The notes under the pieces are model-generated. The model was not told the DNA's origin. It was given only the letters and a program-made list of their open reading frames with translations, and ran no database searches. A DNA stretch of 39,972 nucleotides, taken from positions 1 through 39,972 of the IMG/VR virus record IMGVR_UViG_3300021406_000007; one strand, written 5' to 3'. Of this stretch, positions 34,594 to 38,977 are shown piece by piece (positions within the stretch are counted from its first letter, which is position 1; each line of letters starts with the position of its first letter). A program made the position numbers and the translations under genes. Source of the DNA: a virus.

Positions 34594-34622
34594 CATATAT
34601 CAGCCTTTGTTTATCTTGTCAA
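34594..34622 (-). promoter_or_regulatory. Minus-strand promoter for early/recombination operon
   Basis: On the minus strand TTGACA (34622-34617) and TATATG (34599-34594) have 17-base spacing. Directly upstream of the operon start at 34560. Confidence 0.6.
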
Positions 34623-34631
34623 AGCTAACTA

Positions 34632-34660
34632 TTGACACAAATTCGCACAATTCGTTAACT
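34632..34660 (+). promoter_or_regulatory. Candidate plus-strand promoter of regulator gene
   Basis: A consensus -35 TTGACA at 34632-34637 precedes a weak -10 (TTAACT at 34655) with 17-base spacing. The operator-like inverted repeat begins at 34659, so a repressor could block it. Confidence 0.4.
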
Positions 34661-34701
34661 TGTATGATGTAAATATACAAGATGTCTTGAATTAATGTCA
34701 A
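34659..34701 (-). promoter_or_regulatory. Operator-like inverted repeat under a second minus-strand promoter
   Basis: CTTGTAT (34659-34665) and ATACAAG (34675-34681) are perfect inverted repeats 9 bases apart. On the minus strand TTGACA (34701-34696) and TATATT (34677-34672) form a promoter with 18-base spacing whose -10 lies on the repeat. The adjacent Cro-like regulator is the likely binder. Confidence 0.55.
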
Positions 34702-34720
34702 CAGATATGAGGAAATAAAT

Positions 34721-34975
34721 ATGAAATTGTGTGAATTTTTATCAGAAACAGGAATGAAACCTAGCCACTTTTGCAACAAAGTAGGTATATCATCGACAAC
34801 TCTTTACAATATATTGTCTGGTGATACTGCACCTAATTTAAGAACGGCTATCTCAATTTATAATTTTACTAATAAGCAAGTTAGGTATGAAGATATGCTA
34901 AACGATAACGTTCATCATAAAATTAAAAAGCGGAATACAAAAAAAAAGGAGAAAGAGGAGCAGCCAGCGGAATGA
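34721..34975 (+). CDS. Cro/CI-like HTH regulator
   Basis: 84 residues. Helix-turn-helix of XRE type: KPSHFCNKVGISSTTLYNIL (about 13-32), then SGDTAPNLRTAISIYNF, and a basic C-terminus (KIKKRNTKKKEKEEQ). It is a single-domain Cro-sized protein. It reads away from the recombination operon and sits 40 bases from the operator-like repeat, so it probably sets the balance of the two sides. Confidence 0.8.
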   Translation: MKLCEFLSETGMKPSHFCNKVGISSTTLYNILSGDTAPNLRTAISIYNFTNKQVRYEDMLNDNVHHKIKKRNTKKKEKEEQPAE

Positions 34976-35205
34976 TCTATCGTTTTTCCACGAGTACATA
35001 AATTCACGGTACAGCGTTTTCATGAAAAACCTTTACTTTATAGATATTAAAATTTAAACAACATTGGATGTAAAAATGAGTCTTATAACACACTTCAAAA
35101 TTTATTTAGTGTTGCATAAAAAAGGGCACAACCACGCACTGGCTGTACCCTAAGAGGCTTGTTATGCGATGACAATTGTCGCATAACTTGATGATTTTTA
35201 GCAAT

Positions 35206-35234
35206 AGGCAACACTGAAAACAAAGGAGTTGCCT
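35206..35234 (+). promoter_or_regulatory. Hairpin around the leader ORF ribosome site
   Basis: AGGCAAC (35206-35212) and GTTGCCT (35228-35234) form a perfect 7-bp stem; the ribosome site AAAGGA sits in the loop and ATG 35235 follows at once. Confidence 0.55.
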
Positions 35235-35405
35235 ATGCGTATTTACTGTGAAATAAATCTGAATGAATGTATAGTAGAAAAAAAAATGGCCCGGATTTGC
35301 CGTCCGAGCCTTTTTTACACGCATAGGTGTAAGAGGAACTGTAGTAGCTCTATCTTAGCACCTCATGCAATAAAATGCAATAGCCTTATGAGGTGCTATG
35401 TCTAA
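35235..35405 (+). CDS. Leader peptide ORF (56 aa)
   Basis: ATG 35235 has AAAGGAG (35222-35228) at 6-base spacing. The 56-residue frame, MRIYCEINLNECIVEKKMAR to NSLMRCYV, has eight Cys. It passes through the terminator at 35288 and the hairpin at 35357-35397, and stops at 35403-35405, eight bases into the replication initiator gene. Its length and location suggest a regulatory leader and not a structural product. Confidence 0.5.
   Translation: MRIYCEINLNECIVEKKMARICRPSLFYTHRCKRNCSSSILAPHAIKCNSLMRCYV
35288..35316 (+). terminator. Intrinsic terminator inside leader
   Basis: GGCCCGGA (35288-35295) pairs with TCCGAGCC (35303-35310) with one mismatch around a 7-base loop, followed by six T. A second small hairpin TTACAC/GTGTAA follows at 35315-35332. 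Confidence 0.8.
35357..35397 (+). promoter_or_regulatory. Hairpin sequestering the initiator ribosome site
   Basis: AGCACCTCAT (35357-35366) pairs perfectly over 10 bp with ATGAGGTGCT (35388-35397). The ribosome site GAGG is in the stem and the ATG at 35398 follows immediately, so translation needs the stem opened, for example by a ribosome on the leader ORF. Confidence 0.7.
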
Positions 35406-36207
35406 TTTTTCTATTAAAGATGAAAGTTCGAATCATAAATATCGTACTGAATTACCAAATATTATTTTTGAATTAGGTTTAAGCCCATCTGCTTTTGCTT
35501 TATATGCTGCCATTAAACGTTGTGCGGGTGATTCAGGAGTTTGTACTAGATCAACTACAAATCTAGCTAAAATGGCTAATATGAGTCCTAGAACACTTCA
35601 AAGAACACTTCCAGAGCTTTTAGAAAAAAATAAATTTATAAAAAAATCATTAGTAAAATTAACTCCTAGAATTTCTGATTGTGGCGATCAAGATACCAAT
35701 GAATTAACTATAAACGATATATGGCCAGAAAATGCTCAATATTTTCTAAATAATATTAAGGGTGGTGACAAATTGACGGTACCCCCCGTCAAAATGACAC
35801 CTGGTGGTGTAAAAATGACGGGAGGGGTGGTGACAAATTGTCAGGGGGGTGGTGACAAATTGACGGACAAAGAAGAACCCATTAAGAAGAACCTATATGA
35901 AGAAGAACAACACACCCCCAAAGCCCCAATTAAGTTTGGTGTGTGTGTTTCTCTTTTTTCTTTAGATTATGAAAAATTTTGTCAAGAACATGGAAAAGTT
36001 AAAATCGACCTCTTGATCGAAGAGATGAATGATTATTGCCAAGCTCATGGGAAAACATATAAGGGAGCCGCTGGTTATGCTGCTGCAATGCGTAATTGGC
36101 TTCGCAGGAGAAAACAAGATCCCAAATCACAAAATTCAAATACCGATAGGCGTACTCAAAACAAAGATGGTTCTCCTATCGCTAGTCCTGCTGATGGGAG
36201 GTTTTAA
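35398..36207 (+). CDS. Replication initiator (O-like) with N-terminal winged helix
   Basis: 269 residues. N-terminal winged-helix region: LGLSPSAFALYAAIKRCAGD, STTNLAKMANMSPRTLQRTL, PELLEKNKFIKKS (about 28-90), a DNA-binding fold used by phage replication initiators. The middle encodes repeated GGDKLT / GGVKMT words that reflect iterons in the DNA. The C-terminus holds a helical DnaB/loader-binding-like part (MNDYCQAHGKTYKGAAGYAA). A DnaC-like loader follows, as in lambda O-P type modules. Confidence 0.75.
   Translation: MSNFSIKDESSNHKYRTELPNIIFELGLSPSAFALYAAIKRCAGDSGVCTRSTTNLAKMANMSPRTLQRTLPELLEKNKFIKKSLVKLTPRISDCGDQDTNELTINDIWPENAQYFLNNIKGGDKLTVPPVKMTPGGVKMTGGVVTNCQGGGDKLTDKEEPIKKNLYEEEQHTPKAPIKFGVCVSLFSLDYEKFCQEHGKVKIDLLIEEMNDYCQAHGKTYKGAAGYAAAMRNWLRRRKQDPKSQNSNTDRRTQNKDGSPIASPADGRF
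35761..35866 (+). repeat. Iteron cluster, probable replication origin
   Basis: GGTGGTGACAAATTGACGG occurs at 35761-35779 and 35848-35866; GGTGGTGACAAATTG also at 35826-35840, and a degenerate copy GGTGGTGTAAAAATGACGG at 35803-35821. An inverted relative lies at about 35784-35802. Spacing of the last three is 22-23 bases, two helix turns. Location inside the initiator gene matches the lambda ori within O. Confidence 0.75.
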
Positions 36208-36208
36208 C

Positions 36209-36721
36209 ATGTCACAAATAAGCGAAATTAATGGAAAAACTCCTGAGCAAATGGAGAAAATTCTTGAATATATAAAGAATCCAAAAGGTTTTTTCTTAAT
36301 GGCTGGCACAAATGGCACAGGGAAAAGTTTTGTTGCTGAAGCTATTTATAATTCTATCCGTCTGCCCATTCATGAATGGGATTTAAAATTAATGATTTCT
36401 CAAACAGATTTAAATTTAAAATGGCAAAAACAAATCAAAGATTGGGGTGAAACTACATATTTATTAGATCAAATAATTGCAACAAAAATACTTGTTTTAG
36501 ATGACATAGGAACAAGAATACCTACAGAAAGTTTCATGGATTTTTTGTATGCTATTGCAGATAAAAGATATAGCAATAAATTTAATTGTGGAACTATTAT
36601 AACAACTAATTTAAATTCCCAAAATATGCGCTTGAAGTTTGGAGATGCTTTTGTAAGCAGAGTAGCTTCTGGGGTATGTTTAAGAATGGATGGAAAAGAT
36701 CGAAGATTTATAGAATTTTAA
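36209..36721 (+). CDS. DnaC-like helicase loader (AAA+ ATPase)
   Basis: Start ATG 36209 has GGGAGG upstream; 170 residues. Walker A GTNGTGKS (33-40), Walker B ILVLDDIG (94-101), sensor-1 TTN (132-134) and an Arg finger candidate (R151). It is the compact DnaC/IstB type that loads the host DnaB at the origin. The phage has no own helicase or polymerase in the window, so it recruits the host machinery. Confidence 0.88.
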   Translation: MSQISEINGKTPEQMEKILEYIKNPKGFFLMAGTNGTGKSFVAEAIYNSIRLPIHEWDLKLMISQTDLNLKWQKQIKDWGETTYLLDQIIATKILVLDDIGTRIPTESFMDFLYAIADKRYSNKFNCGTIITTNLNSQNMRLKFGDAFVSRVASGVCLRMDGKDRRFIEF

Positions 36722-38156: not shown

Positions 38157-38284
38157 GATTGACTTCATAAATCAAAAATATGATACCATGTAGACAACTG
38201 CTCAGTCAGCCAAAAACTTTAGAGGAACTTCATCACAGTTGATTGCGTAGTAACGTATGTCAAAAATGTTTTAGGAGTTTTCCT

Positions 38285-38977
38285 ATGTGTAAAGATGAAA
38301 TACATCAAAAAGATTGTTGCTGCTGTCTTCAAGGCCCTCAAGGCTCAACAGGCTTGCAAGGCCCTCAAGGCGTTCAAGGGGTTCCCGGTGTTCAAGGAAT
38401 GATGGGGCCATCAGGTGTCCAAGGCCCTCAAGGTTTACAAGGACCTAAAGGTGATCCAGGACAAAATTGTGATTGTACTGGTTTGCTTACCTCATTGCCA
38501 TATGCAAACGTTTATGCATCTGTAGCCCAAGTTGTACAGCCATTTAATGTTGGTGCTTTAAAAGATCAAGTGTTATTCGATCAGCAAAATGCTGTCTCTC
38601 CTACTGATTTTGACCTAACACAAATGGCCGTTACAGGAGATATTAAATTCTTGAAACATGGTATCTACCATCTTGCTTGGCAATTGCAAGGGAGAATTAC
38701 ATCGCCTGTTCCAAATCCTGTTCCATCTTGGAGCTTTGGTTTTTGGTTAAATGGCGTTTTGGTTCCTGGCTCAATTTATTCTGGTTTTACCCAAGCTCCT
38801 GGAGATGATGCATGTCATAGTACGTCGGATATAATTATTGAAATTAAAGCTGGTGATATGCTGAGAGTGCGAAATACTTCAATATCAGCAGTTGCACTTA
38901 ATCCTAGCATTACTGGATCAGTATTTCCAATTACAATTGCTAGCGTTAATATTGAAGGTTTAAAAGCCCTTCCGTAA
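38285..38977 (+). CDS. Collagen-like protein with C1q/TNF-like C-terminus
   Basis: ATG 38285 is preferred because TAGGAG lies upstream; 230 residues. A short Cys-rich start ([13 protein letters not shown]) is followed by 15 uninterrupted Gly-X-Y triplets (38333-38467), then CDCTG and a beta domain ([34 protein letters not shown]). The layout matches BclA-like filaments: trimeric stalk plus globular head. As a phage protein it may form a surface fibre or decorate the capsid. Confidence 0.8.

Follow-up and report, generated by a model that had tools for sequence, protein, structure and literature searches.

A leader ORF and a predicted antisense RNA ahead of a phage replication initiator gene suggest plasmid-like copy control

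The stretch of DNA analysed here, called the window, is IMG/VR virus record IMGVR_UViG_3300021406_000007 at its full length of 39,972 bases. Its replication region contains the following genes and features.

34721..34975, plus strand: gene of a small HTH protein in a Cro-like position, the first gene of the rightward operon
35204..35236, plus strand: leader hairpin, seen in the sequence, with arms ATAGGCAAC (35204-35212) and GTTGCCTAT (35228-35236)
35235..35405, plus strand: leader ORF of 56 codons, from ATG 35235 to TAA 35403-35405
35248..35275, plus strand: rightward promoter predicted within the leader ORF, GTGAAA-16-TATAGT, from which transcription would start near 35282
35279..35345, minus strand: predicted antisense RNA of 67 nt, start 35345 and end 35279, drawn from a promoter and a terminator-like hairpin
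35288..35310, minus strand: hp3, the terminator-like hairpin of the predicted antisense RNA, assigned by co-variation
35317..35330, plus strand: P2 hairpin; its bases 35321-35330 (GCATAGGTGT) are able to form a duplex with the 5' arm of the initiator hairpin
35352..35380, minus strand: promoter with -35 TTGCAT (35380-35375), a 17-bp spacer ending in TGC, and -10 TAAGAT (35357-35352)
35356..35398, plus strand: initiator hairpin; its arms, 35356-35366 and 35388-35398, cover GAGG and the first base (A) of the start codon
35398..36207, plus strand: replication initiator gene (HTH_36) in a lambda O-like position, start ATG 35398
35760..35866, plus strand: four iteron-like 20-nt repeats (repeat family D1) within the initiator gene
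36209..36721, plus strand: DnaC-like helicase loader gene (phrog_50, 3.6e-23)

The small HTH protein resembles transcription-regulator families of PHROGs at E values of 1.4e-4 or weaker, and a Pfam search with it gave no match. The initiator protein matches PF13730 (HTH_36) in Pfam with an E value of 5.4e-7, and replication initiation protein and replisome organizer families in PHROGs; matches to RepA/RepZ-type initiators were absent from both collections, and HTH_36 and phage initiator families were all that it matched. The repeats at 35760-35866 likely mark an origin inside the initiator gene, and the lambda origin likewise sits within its initiator gene. Counts of 10-mers in the initiator gene did not exceed shuffled sequences in the window, while in six of the seven other genes they were clearly above. 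Far to the right of this region, 38243-38977 of the window encodes a protein with collagen-like repeats (PF01391).

Relatives were found by scanning a viral collection for initiator plus loader, and also for DNA patterns. Seven further distinct leader regions were obtained, all in phage contigs, giving eight sequences with the window. Group 1 consists of the window, L001 and L030, and group 2 of L034, L036, L037, L038 and L039; the helicase loaders of L034, L036 and L037 are 52% identical to that of the window. L030 was read in our scripts through locus L041. The contig of L001 also appears as L031, L032, L033 and L042 and was counted once; two loci were left out of the counts, L035 because it is the same as L034 over the compared stretch and L040 because it holds only the 3' end of dnaC. 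L002, a more distant locus with an initiator 34% identical, was also left out of the eight-sequence counts and kept as a negative comparison: it has neither the long overlapping leader nor the minus-strand promoter. Since the eight sequences are related to each other, the effective sample is smaller than eight. Scans of genome contigs with the helicase loader confirmed no relative. Named phages gave no DNA match to the window and no match to its initiator, and one weak match to the initiator of L036. The 16-mer AGCAATAGGCAACACT was found in 28 viral stretches, which were mostly set aside as chance; local blastn of the leader against these stretches gave long matches in L030 and L031 only, the rest being short.

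The leader ORF of the original prediction proved real at its full 56 codons, and it ends, as had been claimed, eight bases into the initiator gene. In all eight sequences this frame is open over 56-68 codons from its start codon, and its stop lies 8 or 11 bases within the initiator gene. When the observed substitutions were placed randomly, the chance of an open leader frame was 0.02-0.14 for single pairs of sequences. Within group 1 the dN/dS values of the ORF are 0.77, 1.08 and 0.55, which suggests that the leader peptide itself is weakly constrained at most, and no family match was found for it in Pfam or PHROGs. Residues resembling IL..H...CN recur in the leader alignment, and they sit on promoter and hairpin bases; leader codons vary around fixed promoter bases, with TTA, CTA, ATA or GTA over the -10 box and TGC or CGC over the -35 box. 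Because the peptide is not strongly conserved, it seems that translation through the leader region is kept more than its product.

The ribosome site of the leader, AAAGGAG at 35222-35228, was also found where it had been placed, in the loop of the 35204-35236 hairpin, and the stem of this hairpin includes the first two bases of the leader start codon. All three group-1 sequences keep its arms, and L001 and L030 have a T.G wobble in them (G.U on the plus strand). A few further elements were observed 5' of the leader. The octamers AGTGTTGC (35108-35115) and GCAACACT (35208-35215) are perfect complements, unchanged in the three group-1 sequences; because the latter also shares bases with the arm hiding the leader start, the pair could be a further switch. 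Two more hairpins lie at 35123-35151 and 35161-35187, the former of which has a minus-strand U-run and resembles a hairpin in L001 and L030. In group 2, an ORF of about 92 amino acids precedes the leader (2666-2944 in L034, with equivalents in the others), and by eye its ribosome site seems to be held in a hairpin too.

At the other end of the leader ORF, the ribosome site of the initiator gene is masked by a hairpin. The original prediction called it a perfect 10-bp hairpin; it is perfect on the plus strand, and its length is 11 bp, not 10. Across the eight sequences 4 of the 11 pairs have changed on both sides, and standard pairs fill 81 of 88 cells on the plus strand versus 75 of 88 on the minus strand. 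None of 2000 column shuffles, a control that ignores relatedness, reached 81. Moreover, the wobbles on the plus strand are G.U in seven cells versus A.C in one. From its co-variation, its larger number of standard pairs on the plus strand and its G.U wobbles there, this hairpin behaves as a plus-strand RNA helix. With a predicted accessibility of 0.41, the initiator ribosome site does not stand out among 40 ORFs of the window, the initiator included (mean 0.47), and accessibility was dropped as evidence; the unusual feature of the initiator hairpin is its co-variation, not its mere presence. The proposal that leader translation opens a hidden ribosome site thus gained support from the comparison, through the ORF open in eight of eight, the overlap and the plus-strand co-variation. 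Together these features support a leader ORF that runs over the hidden site and would couple initiator translation to its own.

The hairpin within the leader ORF that had been claimed as an intrinsic terminator (35288-35316) fared differently. On the plus strand its stem is imperfect (GGC-C-CGGA / TCCG-A-GCC, with a C.A mismatch), and a plus-strand scan credits it with five pairs only. On the minus strand, hp3 forms an uninterrupted stem of eight pairs, including one G.U, with ATTTTTTTTT after it. Five of nine pairs have changed on both sides across the eight sequences; in one case, a CGG/CCG swap between the window and L001, the helix is kept and Arg and Pro are exchanged. Pairing is found in 71 of 72 cells on the minus strand and in 67 of 72 on the plus strand, where the mismatches include four A.C cells (G.U on the minus strand) and no G.U cell. 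Hence hp3 behaves as a minus-strand helix. The number of U in the nine nucleotides past its last G-C pair is 8, 6, 5, 6, 6, 7, 5 and 6 on the minus strand versus 6, 3, 1, 3, 6, 4, 4 and 4 on the plus strand in the same eight sequences, so that in no sequence does the plus tail have more U than the minus tail, and a strong plus-strand U-run is found in only two. In some relatives the minus tail itself makes a weak terminator (five U of nine in L030 and L038). On these data, hp3 most plausibly forms the end of an RNA made from the minus strand.

YUNR is a motif of antisense recognition. The plus-strand loop of hp3, seven nucleotides long and UUUGCCG in the window, begins with YUNR, and this holds for all eight sequences (UUUGCCG twice, UUAGCCG, CUGGUAA, UUUGCGG, UUGGUAG, UUAGUCG and UUCGUAG) versus 29 of 316 background hairpins with seven-base loops. 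Kissing between the loop of the upstream hairpin and that of hp3 was weighed by eye and dropped as inconsistent.

A promoter for such an RNA was missed by the original prediction, as was the RNA. The minus-strand promoter was first picked by eye, and its extended -10 pattern, TTG-N17-TGnTAnnnT, lies at the same place in all eight sequences; the expected count of this pattern is a mean of 3.75 per shuffled window on both strands (80 kb). Scored with sigma-70 base frequencies, which are E. coli-like and may not be those of the host, the minus promoter has a mean of 9.30 and a minimum of 7.51 over the eight sequences. The internal rightward promoter, 29 bases before the centre of the hp3 loop, has a mean of 6.98 and a minimum of 5.37 on the same scale. 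The control for the latter covered 978 offsets over codon-aligned dnaC genes from six of the sequences (L030, for which no dnaC was fetched, and L039, which is cut off, are not among them); its highest score was 4.53, and the mean scores of both promoters exceed every control offset.

The conserved minus promoter combined with hp3 gives the predicted antisense RNA, with 67 nt in the window and 67-81 nt across the eight sequences. Its folding z-score is -3.2 in the window and ranges from -2.9 to -5.7 across the eight. Rfam gave no match for 34600-35800 of the window (E up to 1) or for the seven other loci (E up to 0.5). Of what the analysis added to the picture first drawn from the window, this conserved candidate gene for an antisense RNA matters most.

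Every one of the eight phages carries, between hp3 and the minus-strand -10 box, bases that complement the masking arm of the initiator hairpin. In the window this duplex of P2 and masking arm has an energy of -14.2 kcal/mol. In group 1 it spans 10 bp at the same offset, and the p values from dinucleotide shuffles are 0.016 (window), 0.008 (L001) and 0.002 (L030); in group 2 they are 0.044 (L034), 0.126 (L036), 0.116 (L037), 0.020 (L038) and 0.412 (L039). Five of the eight values are thus below 0.05 and three above. A phage's own P2 and arm pair better than swapped partners (p 1e-4, close relatives included). In nested folding with the antisense region masked, access to the ribosome site drops in four of the eight (L001, L030, L034 and L038), with no such drop in the window (0.09 versus 0.08), L036, L037 and L039. 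Taken together, the P2 loop may be able to capture the arm masking the ribosome site, a possibility that is clear in group 1 and weaker elsewhere.

We suggest, as a reasonably probable reading of these sequences, that an antisense RNA and a leader ORF form an RNA copy-control circuit of the kind that plasmid R1 and the I-complex plasmids have, acting on a lambda O-like phage initiator. Sequence comparison supports the ORF overlap, the initiator hairpin, both promoters and hp3 as a minus-strand helix; from these we infer the existence of the RNAs, their kissing, the coupling and the copy-number logic. According to this circuit, a long rightward transcript of the early operon would carry the leader ORF, and ribosomes reaching the leader stop eight bases inside the initiator gene would melt the hairpin and hand over to the initiator. 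The leftward promoter inside the leader ORF would produce the short antisense RNA (67 nt, or 67-81 nt in relatives) ending at hp3. On the mRNA, this RNA could bind hp3 and P2, probably making first contact at the YUNR loop, and pairing would both stop the leader from being translated and prevent P2 from capturing the arm over the ribosome site. More genome copies would then give more antisense RNA and less initiator. In addition, the second rightward promoter in the leader ORF would give a shorter mRNA starting just before hp3, which the antisense RNA could reach. Since the short mRNA would be without the leader start, leader coupling could not act on it.

Other explanations account for part of these observations. 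The original prediction, a plus-strand terminator in the leader ORF with translation both suppressing termination and opening the hairpin, is favoured by the TTTTTT after the plus-strand hairpin in the window, by a similar tail in L036, and by the conservation of leader ORF and initiator hairpin. Against this, six of eight sequences have at most four U in the nine nucleotides after the plus hairpin, four of eight carry a C.A mismatch on that strand, and the internal promoter is predicted directly upstream of the hairpin. A transcription start past the terminator had been named as what would refute attenuation, and the predicted start near 35282, just before the hairpin, comes close to that. 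With a strong plus U-run in two of eight sequences, the mismatch and this start, the attenuation layer is not supported, and we regard this model as decidedly unlikely. Still less credence is due to a leader ORF that encodes a small functional protein with RNA features as a secondary matter: the frame is open in eight of eight and the IL..H...CN-like residues recur, but dN/dS in group 1 is not that of a strongly conserved peptide, the recurring residues coincide with promoter and hairpin bases, and there is no family hit in Pfam or PHROGs, which together make such a protein very improbable.

A relation to lambda pO/OOP would leave the leader ORF incidental, and the leftward promoter would matter mainly because it interferes with rightward transcription across the origin inside the initiator gene, or because RNase III cleaves the mRNA. 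The layout is the same, with a Cro-like gene, a short leftward RNA (predicted here), an initiator with in-gene repeats and a helicase loader, and in lambda pO is reported to reduce transcription from pR and to influence replication (PMC3985674), and OOP to overlap the end of cII (PMC5869508). However, the ORF overlap, the co-varying plus-strand hairpin and the YUNR loops are left unexplained by this explanation, which we consider unlikely. The likeness to lambda is that a short leftward RNA, predicted in the phages, ends at a hairpin and lies just upstream of an initiator gene that bears the origin (PMC5869508; PMC3985674). The differences are that in lambda, as far as these accounts describe it, no leader ORF overlaps the initiator gene, and that OOP acts on cII whereas the phage target would be a leader ORF with no family hit.

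The R1- and I-complex-like circuit also differs from its plasmid models. In I-complex plasmids (IncI, IncB/O, IncK and IncZ, with the order Inc RNA - repY - repZ in ColIb-P9), a hairpin covers the initiator site, as in the phages, and the pairing of loop with arm forms a pseudoknot, whereas the long-range pairing of the phages could be nested. The ColIb-P9 loop UUGGCG is absent from the hp3 loops of all eight sequences, the phage initiator is unrelated, and the arrangement lies in a phage. Translation of an I-complex leader peptide is needed for the initiator and the antisense RNA is a stem-loop (PMC10286972), and RNAI kisses SLI (PMC10724649); the phages would share an antisense stem-loop RNA, as predicted from their sequences, and they have a leader ahead of the initiator in the form of an overlapping ORF. 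In plasmid R1 (IncFII; copB - PrepA - copA - tap - repA), rep is transcribed into a long and a short mRNA, translation of a leader ORF is coupled to that of the initiator, an antisense RNA covers the leader, and a small regulator gene lies upstream (PMC5717011). These are the points of likeness, with the RNAs and the coupling being predictions in the phages; unlike in R1, the phage initiator is of the HTH_36 type with a DnaC-like loader, and the antisense target sits inside the leader ORF. Because the initiators differ and hp3 is without the UUGGCG loop, the phage circuit would work like those of R1 and the I-complex without being a member of either. In extrachromosomal mycobacterial prophages, origins are RNA-based and a noncoding RNA replaces the initiator protein (PMC7157519). 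RNA control in plasmid-kept phages would be shared, whereas in the present phages a protein initiator is the apparent target. Among the papers listed by searches of an open-licence library, no title or abstract opening described this arrangement in a phage.

A layout known from plasmid copy-number control appears to be present in a family of uncultured phages. Searches of the eight records, some of which are short or perhaps incomplete, found no integrase (PF00589), S24 repressor or ParB_N. ParA-like proteins (phrog_164) are present in two of the eight, both of group 2, and the window's own record yielded neither integrase nor ParA. The ParA of these two relatives and the lack of integrase hits would fit a phage-plasmid life for part of the family. 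The two ParA-like genes lie at L043 784-1461 and L044 850-1482, and each is followed by a small ORF that gave no Pfam hit and that has, by eye, a ribbon-helix-helix look.

More tentatively, such a lineage without integrase hits, some of its members with ParA, might use the plasmid-type antisense RNA and leader ORF as a switch between phage-like and plasmid-like replication. Two facing promoters would lie within one small ORF, and a long lytic transcript, on which the leader is translated and the hairpin opened, would escape the control that throttles the short one; we hold this to be possible and rather doubtful. If the copy-control circuit is true, plasmid copy-number logic precedes an unrelated type of phage initiator, which would suggest convergent use of the circuit, and a testable handle would be given on how plasmid-kept phages restrain and then release replication. 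Moreover, incompatibility groups among such phages could then be predicted from the 3' part of the YUNR loops, which is variable.

One other hairpin was observed in all five group-2 sequences. Its stem varies, and its loop stays nearly the same around CGCCAA, which is UUGGCG on the minus strand; it follows a TTGCAA box and lies at 2424-2451 in L034 and 1905-1932 in L037, with the same alignment place in L036, L038 and L039.
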